The notes under the pieces were generated by a model that was not told the DNA's origin, searched no databases, and worked only from the letters and a program-made list of their open reading frames with translations. 64,000 nucleotides of DNA from Marivirga atlantica (lineage in GTDB: Bacteria > Bacteroidota > Bacteroidia > Cytophagales > Cyclobacteriaceae): NCBI RefSeq assembly GCF_016734805.1, contig NZ_JAERQG010000005.1:1-64000 (forward strand). Direction: 5' to 3'. The stretch's first letter is position 1; each line of letters begins with the position of its first letter. Shown in pieces: positions 36,563 through 44,702 of this stretch. The translations under genes and the position numbers were made by a program.

Positions 36563-37237
36563 TTATTGATTTGAAGTTTTATTTTGTATAATTTTCTTTT
36601 CAGTGACTTTATAGCCTGTGGCTTCCTCAACATTGGTTGCCAATTGATCTACAGATACTTTTGTTTGATCAAACTTGACCGTTGCAATACCACTTTTGTA
36701 GGAGGATGAAGCTTCGAGAACGCCTTCACTATTATTAAGCGCAGCATTCACGCTATGCTCACATCCGGTGCAGGTCATGCCTTTGATATTCAGTTCTGCA
36801 TTCAGAATATCACTTTCTTTCACCACGATAACTTTATCCCCTTTGCTGTTGTCAGGGAAAAAAATGCCGGAATAGGATGGGAAAGCAAGCATCAATACCG
36901 CAAAGACGGTAACGATTCCCAGAAACTTCTTAGACTGCCAAAATGAGGGACGCTCATCCTCGTCACAGGCACAGTCGATTTCTTCCTGGGTCCTGGGTCT
37001 TCCATGCCTGCCGGCAGGCAGGAATTTTTGATACCAGGCAAACCCCAATACCAAAACGGTAAGGCCTATTAAATAAGGTCTAAAAGGCTCCATCCATGAA
37101 AAGGTTGCCGCAATGCCTCCAATCCCTGCCAGCGTGGCGAAAACAGGTGTGATACAACAAAGAGATGCAGTAATGGCCACCAACAAACCGGTACCAACAC
37201 TTTTGGGGGTTGTATTTGCTTGATTTGAATTGCTCAT
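36563..37237 (-). CDS. merTP: MerTP fusion: mercuric transporter with C-terminal HMA domain
   Basis: A 224-residue protein. Residues 1-130 are MerT: first helix with SLCCITP (vicinal Cys), WMEPFRPYLIGLTVLVLGFAWYQ and cytoplasmic CACDEDE. Residues 150-224 form a MerP-type HMA domain with GMTCTGCEHSVNAALNN. The fusion is common in Bacteroidota. The loop segment LPAGRHGRPR is encoded over a 14-base palindrome (37006-37019) and looks inserted compared with the shorter MerT loop elsewhere. It overlaps the ArsR gene by four bases (37234-37237) and is its first target. Confidence 0.9.
   Translation of the reverse strand: MSNSNQANTTPKSVGTGLLVAITASLCCITPVFATLAGIGGIAATFSWMEPFRPYLIGLTVLVLGFAWYQKFLPAGRHGRPRTQEEIDCACDEDERPSFWQSKKFLGIVTVFAVLMLAFPSYSGIFFPDNSKGDKVIVVKESDILNAELNIKGMTCTGCEHSVNAALNNSEGVLEASSSYKSGIATVKFDQTKVSVDQLATNVEEATGYKVTEKKIIQNKTSNQ
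37006..37019. repeat. 14-base palindrome GCCTGCCGGCAGGC inside merTP
   Basis: A perfect palindrome (GCCTGCC/GGCAGGC), extended by CATG on one side and AGG on the other, encoding part of LPAGRHGRPR in the loop of MerTP. Short GC-rich palindromes of the CCTGCCGGCAGG type are dispersed in some Bacteroidota genomes (recollection). It may be an inserted repetitive element that happens to keep the frame. Confidence 0.5.
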
Positions 37238-37608
37238 GATACTGGTTCTTTTTTATTGTTATCAAATAAGCTTTTTAAGACGGGTTTAATCACCTGTATA
37301 TTATCTTCTACCAAAGAATAGAACACTGTTTGTCCCACCTTCTCACTGGTTACAAGGCCTCCTTCTCTCAATTTCTTCAGATGTTGTGAAATGGCAGGCA
37401 CGGTCATTTCCAAAATGTCACTCAGGTCGCAGGGACAAAGTTTGGTTTCTTTGCTAAGTAGGTAGAGAATTTTTAAGCGGACTTCATTGCCCGACAGGCT
37501 CAATGCCTTAGCCACGATAGCTATTGATGGTGCTACTTTGTTAATTTCTTCTTTGCACTGTTGGATCTGCTTAACATCTGCAAAAACCCGGATACACGAT
37601 TTACTCAT
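37234..37608 (-). CDS. ArsR/SmtB-family metal-responsive repressor
   Basis: A 124-residue winged-helix repressor. The first 30 residues carry CIRVFADVKQIQQC, then a helical core, LSKETKLCPCDLSDILEMTVPAISQHLKKLREGGLV, where LCPCDL corresponds to the ELCVCDL metal motif of ArsR/MerR-type sensors and MTVPAISQHLKKL is the recognition helix, and the wing VGQTVFYSL. It starts the mercury operon; two inverted repeats flank its promoter (37619-37678). Release by Hg2+, As(III) or another soft metal is inferred from the Cys motif and context. Confidence 0.92.
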   Translation of the reverse strand: MSKSCIRVFADVKQIQQCKEEINKVAPSIAIVAKALSLSGNEVRLKILYLLSKETKLCPCDLSDILEMTVPAISQHLKKLREGGLVTSEKVGQTVFYSLVEDNIQVIKPVLKSLFDNNKKEPVS

Positions 37609-37618
37609 ACTTCTTTTT

Positions 37619-37637
37619 ATTTAAGCAATTACTTAAA
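37619..37637. promoter_or_regulatory. Operator 1 of the ArsR-merTP operon
   Basis: TTTAAGCAATTACTTAAA is a near-perfect inverted repeat (TTTAAGcaattaCTTAAA) about 10 bases upstream of the arsR-type start codon, just downstream of the TAnnTTTG promoter element. The same sequence with one half changed occurs at 37661-37678. ArsR-family proteins bind such imperfect palindromes. Confidence 0.7.
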
Positions 37638-37640
37638 CAA

Positions 37641-37670
37641 CAAAGGTAAGAAAAAAAATGTTTAAGCAAA
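37641..37670 (-). promoter_or_regulatory. Promoter of the ArsR-merTP operon (Bacteroidota type)
   Basis: On the minus strand TACCTTTG (37641-37648) matches the -7 element TAnnTTTG, and TTTG (37667-37670) lies 18 bases upstream as a -33 element. The -33 element falls inside operator 2, so a bound repressor would block the sigma factor directly. Confidence 0.7.
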
Positions 37671-37678
37671 TGCTTAAA
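37661..37678. promoter_or_regulatory. Operator 2 of the ArsR-merTP operon
   Basis: TTTAAGCAAATGCTTAAA is an 18-base inverted repeat whose arms TTTAAGCA and TGCTTAAA are perfect. It shares TTTAAGCAA with operator 1, about 41 bases away (roughly four helical turns), so two repressor dimers could sit on the same face of the DNA and occlude the promoter between them. Confidence 0.7.
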
Positions 37679-37701
37679 TAATCGGTTATAAAAAAATAGA
37701 T

Positions 37702-38268
37702 TTAATGGACCCTCATATGTCCGTTCAACGCTTTTACAGAAAGAAATCCCTTCCCACATTCTCTACACTCAAAATCTTGTTTACTCTGGCCGTTTGCTTG
37801 ATGGTGTACAGGCTTGTAAACAGCTTTTTTCCTTATAAAATGCTTGTTTTCTGCCATTTTCCCGACAAATAGCTCCGCGTAGCTGTAGCCGGTAAACGCT
37901 AATACCCCGGCCAGGAATACTTTTGTGAAAGCAGCTATCAGTGATGGATCAAGAAATGAGAATGGATTGTAATACAGCAAGTTCATGATAAATACGAAAA
38001 TGGCATAAAGTGCTGGCTTGCGTCTGATCACATGGATTGTAAAAACCAGAATGGTCAGGTCAAAGCTGATGGCATAGAAAAGTGCGTAAACGTTTTTCCA
38101 CAGCCTATTGCCGTCAAAGGGAGATACATTGTAAAACAATTGATGGGAATGCATAATCATAGGGATAGTTCCGGCAATTACTACGATGAAAATGAATTTG
38201 CGTGAATAGAGAAAAGCCTCAAATCGCTCAAATACATCTGTTTTTCTGTTTTCTTCCATTATTTTCAA
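37702..38268 (-). CDS. Four-helix membrane protein with C-terminal C2H2 zinc finger
   Basis: A 188-residue protein. Residues 20-135 form about four hydrophobic helices (FIFIVVIAGTIPMIMHSH; VYALFYAISFDLTILVFTIHVI; FVFIMNLLYY; VFLAGVLAFTGYSYAELFV). The last 23 residues are FECRECGKGFLSVKALNGHM and RVH, that is C-x2-C-x12-H-x3-H, the spacing of a classical eukaryotic C2H2 zinc finger. The linker is rich in His, Lys and Gln. The finger is probably cytoplasmic. No known family is recalled for the combination. It is adjacent to the mobile-element-like genes at 38.3-40.5 kb. Confidence 0.85.
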   Translation of the reverse strand: MKIMEENRKTDVFERFEAFLYSRKFIFIVVIAGTIPMIMHSHQLFYNVSPFDGNRLWKNVYALFYAISFDLTILVFTIHVIRRKPALYAIFVFIMNLLYYNPFSFLDPSLIAAFTKVFLAGVLAFTGYSYAELFVGKMAENKHFIRKKAVYKPVHHQANGQSKQDFECRECGKGFLSVKALNGHMRVH

Positions 38269-38315: not shown

Positions 38316-38567
38316 CTAAACTCTTGCACCTTTTTTAAATTTTGCCAGCTCATTGCCATTGGGTTTGTTCTCATAAATGATTGAGGTTTCCCATTGGCCT
38401 TTAAAGGTTTCCATCAGCATTTTTTCTAGCCTTCGGATGCCAAGACCCTGGTTAGGCAAGGCTCTTTTGTGCGTCTTGTCCAGGGAATAGAAGGTTCGGA
38501 CATTGCCATCGTAAAACCAGACAATGCATTTAGACAAAGCCTCCCGTTGCATTTGTTCACTGAGCAT
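38316..38567 (-). CDS. Small hypothetical protein of the element module
   Basis: An 83-residue soluble protein: an N-terminal helix (EQMQREALSKCIVWFYDGNVRTFYSLD) followed by basic segments (KTHKRAL, RRLEKMLMETF) and a basic C-terminus. It overlaps the end of the larger upstream gene by 11 bases and is read in the same direction. I do not recognise a family; the basic character would fit binding to nucleic acid or to the partner protein encoded upstream. Confidence 0.72.
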   Translation of the reverse strand: MLSEQMQREALSKCIVWFYDGNVRTFYSLDKTHKRALPNQGLGIRRLEKMLMETFKGQWETSIIYENKPNGNELAKFKKGARV

Positions 38568-39816
38568 AAGCTTCTTGTTTAGGTTTAAGGCTTTGCAGAT
38601 GTAAACAGCGTTGTAAACACTGCTGATAGGCTTGATTCAGGGATTCATCCCGGTATCCGGCCAGCCTTTTCTGCTGAATCCGGAAGAGCTGTAAACGGGT
38701 CTTTTCCCGGAAGCGACCCTTATTCTGTTCATGCTGTTGCCATTCACTCTTTACCTGTTGAAGCAGCAACTGGTTCCTTATTTCAATTTTGAGGGTTTCC
38801 TGCTTCACATACCATTGCCAGGTCTTTTTGAAGCCGTTCCGCTCGTTGTTGGGATGGAAGTAGATATGGGGTTTAGGAATCCAGTGGCCCGGACTTCTGG
38901 TTAGCCACCTGGCCACCATATTGACCCGGTTGAAAGCTGTATCCTGGTACTTGAGCCAGTCTTTTTCAGTTGCATTCGATTGAAGCTTGCCGTAAACCGA
39001 CTCCCAAATCAGGTTAAGGATTTCCCTTACTTCAGGCTCGGAAAGAATCAAGTCGGGATACAGCACTTTTCGGGCATAATCCCAGAACTGCCGGATGAGT
39101 GAAAGTAAGAAAATGCGCCCCGCCCCTGCAACTCGTTCCTGTTTTTCGGCTTTATAATACCTTTCAGGAGCTTTTAATTGCTGTTTTGAGGAAGGGTTAG
39201 CATTTTCCTCCGTGTTCTTGTCTTGTTCATGTCCTGTTCCTGTGGCTTTGCCACTCTCGTGACCGTAGGGAACTCCGCTTTTTTGAGTTCCTGATTTATC
39301 CACCTTGCTATTATTATTTAATCGTTCTTGATGTTCATGAACTAAAGGGTGAAAATTTTTCGCTTTTTCATAAAAAATAGAGGTTACATCCCCGATTTTC
39401 AGCACATTATCCCCAAGTGGGGTGGATAACTTTGCCATACCCAAAACCTCAGGATTGAGCCAGATTTCCACGCCTCCTTTGCCTCTATGTTCTTCTTGTG
39501 TTATGAAACCGGATTGTTTCAGGCGTTCTTTATGATTGATAATCGTGCGTTTGGTGCAGCCTTTGCATTTGGCCAGGCTCTCATTATAGGTGTTGAAGCC
39601 AGGAAGGTTTTCAAGATCAAGATTATCCAACTGAGCTGCTTTGTTAAGTTGTTTGAGATAGAGCCGGGTGATCAGCTCGGCTGTAGCCCGATGGTTGGCA
39701 TTGAGCTTTTGGGTAAGTTTTATTTGCCGGTTGTTATACCGGTCAATGAATGACTTGGTATTCTGGAAAACCTCTCCAAAACTGAAATGTGCATTTTGAC
39801 TATTTTGCTCTTCCAT
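38557..39816 (-). CDS. Winged-helix replication/regulatory protein of a mobile element
   Basis: A 419-residue protein, mostly helical and basic. Residues 40-130 form a winged-helix: NHRATAELITRLYLKQLN, LAKCKGCTKRTIINHKERLKQSGFI (HTH) and GKGGVEIWLN (wing). The middle region is low complexity and the C-terminal half is rich in Arg, Gln and Trp (RWLTRSPGHWIPKPHIYFHP, KTRLQLFRIQQKRLAGYRDE). This resembles plasmid or conjugative-element replication initiators of Bacteroidota, but I cannot name the family. It overlaps both neighbouring genes. Confidence 0.72.
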   Translation of the reverse strand: MEEQNSQNAHFSFGEVFQNTKSFIDRYNNRQIKLTQKLNANHRATAELITRLYLKQLNKAAQLDNLDLENLPGFNTYNESLAKCKGCTKRTIINHKERLKQSGFITQEEHRGKGGVEIWLNPEVLGMAKLSTPLGDNVLKIGDVTSIFYEKAKNFHPLVHEHQERLNNNSKVDKSGTQKSGVPYGHESGKATGTGHEQDKNTEENANPSSKQQLKAPERYYKAEKQERVAGAGRIFLLSLIRQFWDYARKVLYPDLILSEPEVREILNLIWESVYGKLQSNATEKDWLKYQDTAFNRVNMVARWLTRSPGHWIPKPHIYFHPNNERNGFKKTWQWYVKQETLKIEIRNQLLLQQVKSEWQQHEQNKGRFREKTRLQLFRIQQKRLAGYRDESLNQAYQQCLQRCLHLQSLKPKQEAYAQ

Positions 39817-40012
39817 ACGCTGACATTTTAAAAGTTTGGAGTTCTTTTAAAGAAAAAATGATTTCCTGGGTGAAATGGATTTTCTCTGAAACTTCTTCGT
39901 CCAGTAATGAGGTGTTCTTCTCGCCAAATTCTTTCAGTAGAAAATTGTAAACCAGTTTACACCGGTCATGCTCTTTCTGTATAAAATCAATCTGTTCTTG
40001 TAATGAAGCCAT
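39800..40012 (-). CDS. Small helical hypothetical protein
   Basis: A 70-residue protein (MASLQEQIDFIQKEHDRCK...), consisting of two long amphipathic helices probably forming a coiled-coil hairpin. A longer frame to 40045 is also open; the ATG at 40012 is the better start because the added residues are not helix-like and overlap the upstream gene. The end overlaps the winged-helix gene by 17 bases, which suggests translational coupling. Family unknown. Confidence 0.65.
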   Translation of the reverse strand: MASLQEQIDFIQKEHDRCKLVYNFLLKEFGEKNTSLLDEEVSEKIHFTQEIIFSLKELQTFKMSAYGRAK

Positions 40013-40041
40013 GTTTACATTGTTTACAGGATGTTTAAGGA

Positions 40042-40338
40042 TCAATAGCTTGGTACATTCCTGTCAAGGTATTCCAGAATGCTTTTCTTGGAGTAGCGGA
40101 TAATCCTGCCATGCTTTGTAAAGCGTATTGCTTCAATGTCCCTCAGCTCCTGTAACTTGGTTTTGCTGCGGATGCCCAACAGCTTTTTAGCCTCTTCGGT
40201 GGAAAGCCAATCATTGGCCGGGTCGGCATTAGCCAGGGCTTCTTCTTTCGCTTCCCTAATGGCTTGCTTGACCAGATTGATCAGGTCTTTATGCATTTTC
40301 TGATAAGCCTCTTTTTCAAATACGATTATTTCCATCAC
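40042..40338 (-). CDS. HTH excisionase/MerR-like DNA-binding protein
   Basis: A 98-residue protein. Residues 42-95 form an HTH_17 domain: DWLSTEEAKKLLGIRSKTKLQEL, RDIEAIRFTKHGRIIRYSKKSILEYLD. This pattern (STxEAxxLLGI, IxF, xRxIRYxKxxIxEYL) is used by excisionases and regulators of Bacteroidota conjugative transposons. The N-terminal 40 residues are helical and charged. It overlaps the preceding small gene by four bases (40335-40338). Confidence 0.87.
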   Translation of the reverse strand: MMEIIVFEKEAYQKMHKDLINLVKQAIREAKEEALANADPANDWLSTEEAKKLLGIRSKTKLQELRDIEAIRFTKHGRIIRYSKKSILEYLDRNVPSY

Positions 40339-40980: not shown

Positions 40981-41273
40981 TAGTTCTTTCCTGCTCCTTC
41001 AATATGTGCCAGCATCTTTTTCATCATTCGACCTACAGATCGCTTGGTCCCAGTATCGATCTTATAATATTTCCCCTTTAGGCTACCGACAGATATATTC
41101 TCCTGTTGATCCGTTCTGTAATGCCGGCAAACAAAATCCAATAATTCCTGGCGGTTACCATCCACCAGACCAGTTTCAAAAAATGCCCTGACAAATAAAG
41201 AAAGCTGAGGCACCGACATCTTTAAACAGTGTTTTATCATTTGTAGATCGAATACCCGAAAATGTAGTAGCAT
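40977..41273 (-). pseudogene. C-terminal part of an RteC-like gene, frameshifted from the gene at 41176-42465
   Basis: This frame contains KMSVPQLSLFVRAFFETGLV, DGNRQELLDFVCRHYR, ISVGSLKGKYYKIDTGTKRS and a C-terminal helix, which follows the layout of the C-terminal domain of RteC-type regulators (helices, then a ...SxKxxxYxxD... segment). It is out of frame with the long upstream gene, which overlaps it by 98 bases and ends soon after TLFKDVGASAFF. Joining the frames near position 41220 gives TLFKMSVPQLSLF, a natural continuation. It is therefore the lost tail of that gene. Confidence 0.6.
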
Positions 41274-42465
41274 ACTTTAATTTTCTTTTCTGGAAATTTA
41301 TTTCTTCCTGCAGCCAGATCGACATTTGGTCTTTTAGAGGAAGTAAATTCGGGTTATAGCTGAGGTGGGTTTTTACAGGTAATTGGTTGCAGAGTTTATG
41401 ATAGTAATACAGCAGTTCCAATTTATCTTTTGGGGTTTCTCTTTCTTTTAATTCTTTGTGAATTTGGATGGTGAGGTAATTGAAGAATTTCAAAGCATTA
41501 AAGTTAAGCCTCCAGAGGATCAAGAAAACCTCTTTTCCATTCAATGGTACTTGCTGTTGCGAATATCTGTGAAAAGTCAGTAAGTAATGCTCGTGGTAAA
41601 AGTGGCTTTGATAAGTAAAAGTTAGGGGTTCTAAGATACTCAAGCGATCGAAGGGAATAGTAACTATCCCGTATAATTCGGGATCCAATTGCGCTCTTTC
41701 CACTTGGTCGAGCACTTCGCCAAGCTTTTCAGCATGCTTTATGGCCAACAATAACCTACTTTGATACGGAACAGGTAGATTTGTATCCAAATAATGGCCA
41801 AAGGATTTTTCAATGTAAACTAATATATCCTCGAGGGAGTGATAAGTGAGCTTAAAAATATCGGTAGTTGTATGATCCTCAGAAATCTGAAATAGTGAAT
41901 TCCATTCTTTTTTTGGGATATAGTCATTGAGGATGGACTTCATATACCCGATCATAAGGGTCTGGTTTTTTCTGATATATAACCGGATTTGCTCTTCATC
42001 TTTAAGTTTGAATATTTTTTCATTCAGCTGCTTTGTAATGACTGCATAAGCATCAAAAAGTGTTTCCTGATAATAATAGAATTTAATTTTTTGACCCGAT
42101 AAAGCTTGATAATCATCTTTTATCAGTAACTCTATTATGCTGTATTGACCTTCCAAAATTAATATCTGATTTATCACCTTTTGATTATCTATTTTAAGTT
42201 CTTTAGTCAAAAAATCAAGTATATCAGGAAAGTTTGCATCATCCGTATGCTCCACTGAAGATGATTCAATATTACTAAATCGGGACTCTTTCCATTCATG
42301 AATGATATAACCTTTGATTGTACTGCTCAACTTTATTTTAAGTTGATATTTGGCTTCTGGAAATTTCTCCTTTAAATAATCAACATATAGTTGTGTATTC
42401 GAAGGACGGATTAGCGGTGAAAGGTCTTCATTCAGAATCCGGTAAAAAACAGAGATATTTTCCAT
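41176..42465 (-). CDS. RteC-like protein, probably truncated by a frameshift
   Basis: A 429-residue, mostly helical protein beginning MENISVFYRILNEDLSPLIR. Its last 35 residues (ATTFSGIRSTNDKTLFK then DVGASAFFICQGIF) do not fit the preceding pattern, while another frame (40977-41273) carries the expected RteC-type C-terminal domain. RteC proteins regulate excision of Bacteroidota conjugative transposons, but the resemblance here is limited to the tail and general features, so the name is tentative. The break may be real or a sequencing error. Confidence 0.6.
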   Translation of the reverse strand: MENISVFYRILNEDLSPLIRPSNTQLYVDYLKEKFPEAKYQLKIKLSSTIKGYIIHEWKESRFSNIESSSVEHTDDANFPDILDFLTKELKIDNQKVINQILILEGQYSIIELLIKDDYQALSGQKIKFYYYQETLFDAYAVITKQLNEKIFKLKDEEQIRLYIRKNQTLMIGYMKSILNDYIPKKEWNSLFQISEDHTTTDIFKLTYHSLEDILVYIEKSFGHYLDTNLPVPYQSRLLLAIKHAEKLGEVLDQVERAQLDPELYGIVTIPFDRLSILEPLTFTYQSHFYHEHYLLTFHRYSQQQVPLNGKEVFLILWRLNFNALKFFNYLTIQIHKELKERETPKDKLELLYYYHKLCNQLPVKTHLSYNPNLLPLKDQMSIWLQEEINFQKRKLKYATTFSGIRSTNDKTLFKDVGASAFFICQGIF

Positions 42466-42602: not shown

Positions 42603-43178
42603 TCAAAGGATTCTTATTTCTGAACGAACCCTACTAAGCGTTTCACCAGAAATACTAAGATAGGAAGAGACATGGTTGAGAGGAATTCTTTGGATGATCC
42701 TTGGCTCACTTTGAAGGAGCATGATGTAACGTTGCTTGGCTGTAAGTGTCTGTAGAGCTGTTAGTCTATCAAGCATCTGACGACTAAAATCTTCCATTAT
42801 CAATCTTCCCAAGCGCTCCCATTGTTGATATTTTGCATATAGACTGTTAAGCTCATCATACTTCAAACTCAAAACAGTGCAATTTTCAATAGCCTGAATG
42901 TATTCAACAGATGGAGTTTGAGTTGTAAAGCTACGCAAGGAGGTTACGAAAGAGTTCTCAAAAGAAAACCAATGAGTCACTGCCTTTTCATTCTTCACAT
43001 GATAAAAACGACAGCAACCTTTAATCAAGAAATGCGCCTCTTTTGTTACTTCACCTTCTACAGCCAGAAAACTACCTTTACGAAAATTTCTCTTGACAAA
43101 TTTTCTTTCAATCTCAAGAGCAGCATCTTCGTCTAATTTTACAAAACTGTTAAGATAGCCCTGAAGTTGCTCATACAT
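42603..43178 (-). CDS. Crp/Fnr-family transcriptional regulator
   Basis: About 191 residues from MYEQLQGYLNSF (ATG 43178); a longer frame overlaps the kinase gene and adds a low-quality N-terminus. A cNMP-binding-like beta roll (FRKGSFLAVEGEVTKEAHFLIKGCCRFYH...) is followed by a C-terminal HTH reduced to QRIPLNHVSSYLSISGETLSRVRSEIR. Such proteins in Bacteroidota usually bind no cAMP. It lies directly downstream of an orphan histidine kinase and may be its effector (inference), although the usual phospho-receiver domain is absent. Confidence 0.85.
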   Translation of the reverse strand: MYEQLQGYLNSFVKLDEDAALEIERKFVKRNFRKGSFLAVEGEVTKEAHFLIKGCCRFYHVKNEKAVTHWFSFENSFVTSLRSFTTQTPSVEYIQAIENCTVLSLKYDELNSLYAKYQQWERLGRLIMEDFSRQMLDRLTALQTLTAKQRYIMLLQSEPRIIQRIPLNHVSSYLSISGETLSRVRSEIRIL

Positions 43179-43269
43179 AATTTTAGTTTTATACCAATTT
43201 GGATTAAGATAAGATATAAATCGTAATATTTTTGAGCGGTACAGTTGAAAATCGAAGTGATGTAAGAAT

Positions 43270-43983
43270 TTAACCATTTTTTTTCGGAAGCTTAATGTAA
43301 AAAGTCGTTCCGCTAGTGGTACTCTCAATCTCGATCTTCCCATCCAGCTCGTCTACCAAGCTTTGGACTATATACAGACCTAACCCATATCCTTGAACGC
43401 TAACGTTAACTCTGAATCGCTCTTTGAAAATTTTCCGTTGTAATTCAATAGGGATACCCAAACCATTGTCTGAAACCGCGATTATTAATCCATCATTTGT
43501 TTGGTCGAACCGCACATGCACGAAGCATTTCTTTTTTTCAGAATCTCTATATTTTATCGCATTGTCGACCAGATTCTGAAGAATTGAAAAAAGCTTATTG
43601 TAATTGCCTTGGTAAGAGTTTGGACCATGACTGTAAACTTCAATTGTAACATCATCTGGAGGGTTAAGTTGATTTAAAACATTTTGAGAGGTTTCTATTA
43701 AGTCAATGTCTGTTACAGAGTGGTCAGGTTCAAAATATTCCCTGATAAGCTCCTCCACTCGGGTGGTTAAATCTGTCGAAGTTTGTAAAAGTATACTGGC
43801 ATACTCATTTTTTCTCGATAAGTCCGATTCTTCCTTAGTCAGTTGCGCAATTCCCTTCATGGTATGAATGGGACTCAAAATATCATGTGTAATCCTTGCT
43901 ATGAGGGATTTTAATTTTTCTTCTTTCTTTAAAACCATAGTTATGTTGTTGATGTGACTATCATCTAAGATAAACAAACACAT
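43270..43983 (-). CDS. Orphan sensor histidine kinase without sensor domain
   Basis: A 237-residue kinase consisting only of the catalytic core. H box: LIARITHDILSPIHTMKGIA (His at about residue 34). N box NLVDNAIKYRDSEKKKC, G1 box VSDNGLGIP and G2 box GYGLGLYIVQSLVDELDGKI. There is no membrane helix, so any input must come from a partner. The start is either 43983 or an internal ATG at 43938. It is divergent from the XRE-type gene at 44052, with a perfect 18-base palindrome between them. Confidence 0.87.
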   Translation of the reverse strand: MCLFILDDSHINNITMVLKKEEKLKSLIARITHDILSPIHTMKGIAQLTKEESDLSRKNEYASILLQTSTDLTTRVEELIREYFEPDHSVTDIDLIETSQNVLNQLNPPDDVTIEVYSHGPNSYQGNYNKLFSILQNLVDNAIKYRDSEKKKCFVHVRFDQTNDGLIIAVSDNGLGIPIELQRKIFKERFRVNVSVQGYGLGLYIVQSLVDELDGKIEIESTTSGTTFYIKLPKKNG

Positions 43984-44051: not shown

Positions 44052-44294
44052 ATGGATAAAAAAGAAGAGCAGGTAAAAAATATAGATATAGATAGGTTGG
44101 CCAAGAGAATAAAACAACTCAGGCTGGAGAAGGGACATGTGAATTATGAAACCTTTGCCATTGAAAATGGTATTTCAAGATCACAGTACTGGCGGTACGA
44201 GAAGGGAGAAGATTTACGTTTTAGCAGCCTCATGCGGGTCATTCGCGCCTTAAAAGTCAGCCCTGAAGAATTTTTTAGTGAAGGGTTTGATTGA
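44052..44294 (+). CDS. XRE-family HTH transcriptional regulator
   Basis: An 80-residue protein: a short acidic N-terminus, then a Cro/C1-type HTH (LAKRIKQLRLEKGHVNYETF, AIENGISRSQYWRYEKGEDLRFSSLMRVIRALKVSPEEFFSEG). Such small XRE proteins occur commonly at the ends of mobile elements in Bacteroidota, next to a tRNA gene. It is divergent from the orphan kinase and probably represses both genes through the palindrome at 43988-44005. Confidence 0.88.
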   Translation: MDKKEEQVKNIDIDRLAKRIKQLRLEKGHVNYETFAIENGISRSQYWRYEKGEDLRFSSLMRVIRALKVSPEEFFSEGFD

Positions 44295-44425: not shown

Positions 44426-44430
44426 AAAAG

Positions 44431-44503
<73 letters not shown>

Positions 44504-44621
44504 TTAAAGAGAACGCAATTTTAAAAAAAAAATTCAAAAAGTGTTCAAAATCTTAATATTTCAATAATCAAAAACTCTTATGCCTTTGATTTTCAGTTGC
44601 TTACAACTCCAAAGCCCGCTT

Positions 44622-44660
44622 ATTACAAGTCAGTTGCTCTACCAGCTGAGCTAAAGAGGC
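44622..44660 (-). pseudogene. 5' part of a second tRNA-Thr (broken copy)
   Basis: Minus strand GCCTCTTTAGCTCAGCTGGT and onwards through the anticodon loop (ACTTGTAAT) matches the first 39 bases of the intact tRNA-Thr at 44431-44503 with one difference (GCCTCTT against GCCTCCT). After the anticodon loop the sequence is unrelated and cannot form a T arm or acceptor stem. It lies next to the promoter at 44703-44733, before the intact tRNA, so the transcript would begin with this fragment. Confidence 0.85.
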
Positions 44661-44702
44661 TTTTTTGCGTTTGAGAGCTTGTTTTTTCCCTCATTGCGGT
44701 TG

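Follow-up and report, generated by a model that had tools for sequence, protein, structure and literature searches.

Classical C2H2 zinc fingers are regarded as a speciality of eukaryotes, and zinc fingers studied in bacteria are mostly of the Ros/MucR type. One open reading frame in the 64,000-nucleotide stretch of Marivirga atlantica DNA analysed here (the window) was read in an initial annotation as a membrane protein that ends in just such a classical finger. This leads us to ask whether the finger is real, to what kind of gene it belongs, and what it might do at a bacterial membrane.

The open reading frame is present on the minus strand at 37702-38268 and encodes 188 amino acids from a TTG at 38268. 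Since the homologues agree on an in-frame ATG at 38259, this is likely the true start rather than 38268, giving a protein of 185 amino acids (coding sequence 37705-38259). Its features are as follows.

37705-38259, minus strand: likely coding sequence of the membrane/zinc-finger protein if translation starts at the conserved ATG (185 aa), with its stop codon at 37702-37704
38125-38202, minus strand: membrane helix 1, residues 20-45 (AF2, hydropathy)
38032-38106, minus strand: membrane helix 2, residues 52-76, containing FD..ILVFT (AF2, hydropathy)
37969-38016, minus strand: membrane helix 3, residues 82-97, Asn93 and Tyr96 invariant (AF2)
37828-37947, minus strand: membrane helix 4, residues 105-144, a helix that runs on into the cytoplasm (AF2)
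37774-37845, minus strand: basic variable linker, residues 139-162 (pN/pS 0.58)
37705-37773, minus strand: classical C2H2 finger, residues 163-185 (pN/pS 0.18)

The C-terminal residues 163-185, FECRECGKGFLSVKALNGHMRVH, have the spacing C165-x2-C168-x12-H181-x3-H185 with F172 and L178 as the core positions, and the best-scoring Pfam model is PF13912 (zf-C2H2_6), which passes its cut-off (27.3 bits versus 25, E 3.6e-6). PF13894 and PF00096 also align to the finger, with scores under their cut-offs, and the relatives L061 and L027 score 30 with PF13912. The solved structures closest to the C-terminus by sequence are human and designed C2H2 fingers. The C-x2-C-x12-H-x3-H pattern arises in 7 of 200,000 shuffles of the protein, and a chance match or mistranslation is ruled out by the shuffles, the Pfam score and the ligands kept in homologues. 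The finger helix carries the motif KALNGH, similar to the plant QALGGH signature. As the annotation had argued, the Ros type is a poor fit: the x12 between the second Cys and the first His and the x3 between the two His differ from the zinc-domain spacing of that type, and no Ros/MucR model is among the Pfam and NCBIfam matches of the window protein. The membrane part has no match above cut-off in Pfam, NCBIfam, PHROGs or PADLOC.

The AF2 model, built on a 19-row alignment, places helices at residues 20-45, 52-76, 82-97 and 105-144, followed by a beta-beta-alpha finger, in agreement with the four membrane helices and the His/Lys linker described earlier; residues 133-161, in the linker, hold 7 K/R, 1 D/E and 3 H. 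The model as a whole is middling (mean pLDDT 71.9, pTM 0.47), with a pLDDT of 75-78 in the finger and a disordered linker. A model for the L059 branch again has four helices and a small finger domain (mean 79.2, pTM 0.59). The possibility that the finger is unfolded, raised at the outset, is countered by this predicted fold and by Foldseek against the PDB, in which the predicted finger superposes on several C2H2 chains at 0.4-0.6 A over 25 columns (for example 2i13_A, 25 columns at 0.5 A); the E-values of these matches are poor, near 0.5-0.6 and worse, because the domain is so short. In helix 2, Ile70, Leu71 and Phe73 are invariant in the family, and an acidic residue (D, or E in other branches) is kept in most members. 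The loop between helices 2 and 3 is basic (HVIRRKPAL), as is the linker, and by the positive-inside rule this suggests that both ends, and with them the finger, are cytoplasmic (N-in/C-in). A VIA-align comparison of the membrane bundle returned only unrelated helical proteins at Z 4-5.5, including the LTC4 synthase/FLAP group.

The zinc-finger gene is the last of a co-directional set that encodes, in order, an HTH_17 protein, an 81-aa protein, a replication-initiator-like protein, an 83-aa protein and the finger protein. Its surroundings in the window are listed below.

36563-37237, minus strand: MerTP mercuric transport protein (cargo)
37234-37608, minus strand: ArsR-family regulator, first mercury-cargo gene, outside the family module
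38316-38567, minus strand: conserved protein of 83 aa that accompanies the replication gene and lies 47 bp upstream of the zinc-finger gene
38557-39816, minus strand: protein resembling a replication initiator or helicase loader (PHROG 186 DnaD-like helicase loader, E 4e-6; HTH_36 under its cut-off)
39800-40045, minus strand: 81-aa element protein, conserved among loci
40042-40338, minus strand: HTH_17 excisionase-type DNA-binding protein (domain match)
41176-42465, minus strand: element protein of 429 aa, conserved, without a Pfam match that passes its cut-off; resemblance to RteC by eye only
42603-43343, minus strand: cNMP-binding (Crp-type) element protein
43270-43983, minus strand: histidine-kinase-type ATPase of the element
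44052-44294, plus strand: element gene encoding 80 aa, kept in L003, L004 and L007 and HTH-like by eye
44430-44503, minus strand: tRNA-Thr, element edge

There is no integrase in the window between the gene set and the tRNA-Thr. A 44-nt direct repeat (95%), which corresponds to the 5' half of the tRNA-Thr up to the anticodon loop, occurs at 44462-44505 and 44619-44662, 157 bp apart, and is probably an old attachment site or the remnant of an element inserted at the anticodon region. At the other end, between the finger and ArsR genes, two AT-rich imperfect palindromes noted by eye within 37624-37685 (TTAAGCAATTACTTAA and TTTAAGCAAATGCTTAAA) are likely candidates for ArsR operators.

The nine closest loci, all on genome contigs, encode proteins with 63-83% identity by tblastn; two of them are near-duplicates (L003 of L002, and L009 of L005). 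The replication-type, 83-aa and finger genes occur together at all nine, although the replication-type gene is broken in L001. Downstream of the finger gene lie mercury genes in the window and in L001, L002, L003, L004 and L007; in L005, L006, L008 and L009 other genes follow, and then a conserved block of mostly unnamed genes. This block (L006 9078-15637; L005 10889-16557; L009 11735-16556; L029 581-11183) includes LEA_2-like and transglutaminase-like genes, a protein of about 210 aa that is 84% conserved between L005 and L006 and, in L008 and L029, endolysin-type genes, and is a candidate for an unknown prophage or virion module. In L004 and L007 the gene set ends, on its far side, with a tyrosine integrase.

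More distant members show the search for the same helix-finger combination in other Bacteroidota mobile elements, proposed at the outset, to have been rewarded in several kinds of element. In L032 (first copy), L036, L059 and L060 the finger gene lies 13-23 bp after a tyrosine integrase gene, or overlaps it; L032 has two copies, the other after the replication/83-aa pair. The integrase-finger loci of L036, L059 and L060 are sited at tRNA-Ser(tga), with the order integrase, finger protein, cargo; L036 and L059 have in common a protein of great length (1566 aa in L036) and one of 534-537 aa, with no PADLOC match for L036. A family gene lies near a relaxase in L037, another is clustered with DUF5712 and a type IV coupling protein in L061, and L067 lies within an IMG/VR proviral contig (L081). 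The neighbourhoods are thus of four kinds: the replication-initiator-like/83-aa pair, a tyrosine integrase, a relaxase or coupling protein, and a prophage-like setting. This bears out the suggested mobile-element context, and the combination is a divergent family found in several element kinds rather than one odd fusion. Among the cargo, PADLOC identified AbiE (AbiEi/AbiEii) in L035, PDC-S73 in L060 and the Lamassu genes LmuB/LmuC in L061. Because the cargo varies, with mercury resistance here and AbiE or Lamassu elsewhere, the finger protein belongs to the elements and not to their cargo.

The initial annotation would have been undone by homologues that lack the Cys/His residues, yet all nine close loci keep the four ligands. 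In the window gene and eight relatives, pN/pS is 0.17 in the membrane part and 0.18 in the finger versus 0.58 in the linker; the finger is therefore under selection as strong as that on the membrane part, and the linker drifts. A profile search extends the family to distant members aligned at 22-27% identity, with matches in 12 of 148 genomes of the window's family (E up to 0.01, including a few spurious ones) and in 14 of 390 genomes of the order (E up to 1e-4), but, among 395 genomes spread evenly over the phylum, in only 2, both from the window's own family. The matches in L012, L013, L014 and L025 were judged spurious. The finger is present in 17 of 19 aligned members, with spacing variants of x12 or x13 and x3 or x4. 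The two fingerless members, L034 and L038, group with the finger-bearing L061 (tree support 82/84) and are surrounded by ordinary chromosomal genes, with no element genes, as if the finger were lost once the element was gone.

The edges of the family are less sharp. L065, L066 and L067, found by the profile or located at its matches, combine membrane helices with a C2HC finger, and L065 and L067 have in addition a stretch resembling a coiled coil; blastp did not link L067 to the cluster, and the kinship of these proteins to the family appears weaker. The membrane part of L027, a viral contig protein with membrane segments and a C2H2 finger, may be unrelated to the family, because its match lies mainly within the finger. 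Soluble single-finger (C2H2 or C2HC) reading frames also occur (L063 9359-9898, L068 9395-9844, L129 5974-6294): those of L063 and L068 adjoin a DUF3799-cluster gene, the former also in a region of mobilisation genes, and that of L129 lies upstream of a replication-type gene. Single fingers thus seem common in Bacteroidota elements. A decayed fragment of the finger gene, altered in its ligand region, lies before the same ArsR/mer genes in a genome of the window's genus (G448; L041 8408-8599).

The closest homologues come from Cyclobacterium, two Fulvivirga species and a Flammeovirgaceae MAG, and further ones from Nafulsella and Aquimarina (Flavobacteriaceae), a host distribution that fits horizontal spread. 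Plasmid and phage searches with the window protein or its close relatives gave no match. Two MAG records titled Thalassovita and Rickettsiales (L003 and L009) are near-identical to the Fulvivirga loci L002 and L005, and these contigs are probably mis-binned.

Is the finger protein then part of a replication system? The replication-type protein, often with an 83-91-aa partner that carries an SDGNSRTF motif, forms a widespread unnamed module in the order (window 38316-39816; L112-L130), and its profile has matches in 42 of 341 genomes of the order. Among 18 distant loci with a readable neighbourhood, an 83-aa-type gene is recognisable beside the replication-type gene in 10 and the membrane/finger gene in none, the sole weak match to the family profile being the soluble finger frame of L129. 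An obligate partnership with the replication gene is ruled out by these 18 loci, and the finger protein is not required for that replication. It is an accessory protein, acquired by this module in one lineage and by other modules elsewhere. A dedicated replication role is therefore less likely, and tethering, stability, establishment or exclusion, of use to any element, are favoured.

We propose that the protein may tether element DNA, or a nucleoprotein complex on it, to the membrane, by analogy with SpdB2 or phage phi29 p16.7, a reading that we consider quite possible though somewhat short of probable. Its four membrane helices would leave both termini in the cytoplasm, and a basic flexible linker would carry one cytoplasmic C2H2 finger (C2HC in some relatives). 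The membrane domain would place many fingers at the inner membrane, perhaps by oligomerising, and the fingers and basic linkers would bind element DNA, or DNA with replication or recombination proteins; the resulting tethering could help the element to replicate, to persist, or to establish itself after transfer. The topology, zinc binding, nucleic-acid binding, oligomerisation and benefit to the element are steps that we infer. The tether is supported by the DNA-handling contexts (replication-type, tyrosine integrase, relaxase/coupling-protein and prophage neighbours), by the Pfam score, predicted fold and constraint of the finger, by the basic linker and loop, by the independence from cargo and by the fingerless members outside elements; against it stand the variation of the neighbour genes among element types, the 18 replication loci that do without the protein and the middling confidence of the model. 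A single C2H2 finger seldom binds DNA specifically unaided. Single fingers with basic flanks can bind DNA.

Other readings account for parts of the same evidence. Since many single C2H2 fingers bind proteins, the finger might bring a host protein, or one of the element's own (its integrase, relaxase or replication protein), to the membrane with no DNA contact, and the genes that adjoin it would supply such partners; these partners vary among elements while the finger signature L-x-G-H stays constant, and the basic linker suggests nucleic acid, so that we hold this reading to be rather unlikely. An exclusion or abortive-infection protein, whose membrane part would sit at the site of DNA entry while its finger senses incoming phage or plasmid nucleic acid and so protects the host, is unlikely too, if a little less so. 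Superinfection-exclusion genes typically sit beside an integrase, and the AbiE, PDC-S73 and Lamassu genes noted above lie near members of the family. Membrane association combined with nucleic-acid binding is also known in lactococcal AbiP, according to a passage that cites it in PMC10127798. The finger protein itself, however, has no PADLOC match, defence cargo occurs in only some loci, with mercury resistance or other cargo elsewhere, and strong constraint on both domains in one lineage is unlike an arms-race gene.

The close or overlapping, co-directional placement after integrase genes in four loci would also suit a membrane-held regulator of integration/excision or of other element genes, kept at the membrane or released from it, and the DUF2637 membrane proteins of actinophages, some annotated 'excisionase', likewise sit beside integrases. 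We think this improbable: no protease site, sensor domain or conserved operator came to light, the window has a separate HTH_17 excisionase-type gene (40042-40338), and DUF2637 phages with a tyrosine integrase also have a separate annotated excise gene. Nothing was found in support of the 'switch' role of the initial annotation. Least credible, to the point of being hardly worth entertaining, is a part in the mercury cargo, for instance as a membrane metal sensor with Cys/His pairs for Hg(II); the next gene is indeed the ArsR regulator of the merTP operon, but L005, L006, L008 and L009 and all distant relatives encode the protein with no adjacent mercury genes, which rules out membership of the mercury operon.

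Judged from its sequences, this is a new family of membrane-anchored mobile-element proteins with a candidate nucleic-acid-binding tail. More tentatively, and as a possibility that we rate below the tether itself, it may be a widespread and undescribed family of Bacteroidota mobile elements and phages in which classical eukaryote-type C2H2 fingers, borne by a four-helix membrane domain, keep element DNA, or its integration or replication complex, at the inner membrane, a membrane-tethered use of the classical finger so far unreported in bacteria. Phrase searches of open-licence texts, a weak negative, returned no report of a four-helix membrane protein with a C2H2 finger. The family offers a clear and testable example of a classical finger that does a job in bacteria and is retained on a membrane protein in many kinds of mobile element. 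It may reveal how the integrative elements and phages of Bacteroidota organise DNA at the membrane, and an unannotated gene found alongside metal-resistance and defence cargo would gain a function.

How does the protein compare with known systems? Ros and MucR likewise belong to the C2H2 class of bacterial zinc fingers, but they are soluble regulators of alpha-proteobacteria, and their zinc domain is larger and differently spaced. These prokaryotic zinc fingers are reviewed in PMC9779718. The finger is closer to the classical C2H2 type (PF13912, PF00096, and the plant SUPERMAN QALGGH type), with which it shares spacing, Phe/Leu core and the predicted beta-beta-alpha fold. SUPERMAN reportedly carries QALGGH in its single finger; K-A-L-N-G-H is near Q-A-L-G-G-H, and both are single fingers with a basic flank. 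The structure of the SUPERMAN finger is cited in a passage of PMC5745721. Unlike proteins of that type, ours is bacterial, bears its finger on a four-helix membrane protein and occurs in mobile elements, with no nuclear-factor context.

For the membrane part, the DUF2637 proteins of actinophages (PF10935) have a similar order of membrane segments, with an Asp in helix 2 and an Asn in helix 3, sometimes have a C-terminal HTH, and often adjoin an integrase, but they are from Actinobacteria and have no zinc finger. We found these phage proteins with a hand-written DUF2637-like bait and then confirmed them by Pfam (a first bait gave no match among plasmids, nor did the SAP1 plasmid). Among them (L075 21544-22017, L076-L080), some are annotated 'excisionase' and several lie beside an integrase; two DUF2637 phages with tyrosine integrases have a separate excise gene annotated. 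PF10935 does not match the window protein, and the best relative (L032:9147-9755) reaches 13.0 bits versus a cut-off of 22.8. With hhalign, on small alignments, helices 1 and 2 of the family and of DUF2637 are in register at a score of 18 (column shuffles of the membrane part gave 9-12, and the membrane part itself 15.9), and kinship is unproven because E is 0.097. The membrane domain is matched better by proteins of the Tenacibaculum phages pT24 and PTm1 (A0A1B4XWP2 and A0A5S9BYZ7), which rank first among the structural matches in BFVD (E 0.015 and 0.034, probability 1.00 and 0.99) and are also found by the family profile (E 7e-4 and 0.02). These are proteins of Bacteroidota phages, with a long acidic or coiled C-terminal part in place of the finger.

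The two systems nearest to the proposed function are likened to ours by what they do. The protein p16.7 has one N-terminal membrane helix and a coiled coil, and its dimeric DNA-binding domain has a different fold. It shares with our protein its origin in a phage or element, its place in the membrane and, as a candidate function here, the bringing of DNA to that membrane. A passage of PMC4974454 describes p16.7 as a phi29 membrane protein that binds phage DNA and terminal protein and brings viral DNA to the membrane. SpdB2 of Streptomyces plasmids, likened by description and not by sequence, is from another phylum, and the part of PMC4170104 that concerns it describes an oligomeric protein that binds dsDNA and reports no DNA-binding zinc finger. 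The window protein, by its contexts, AF2 model and hydropathy, joins SpdB2 as an integral membrane protein encoded by a mobile element.
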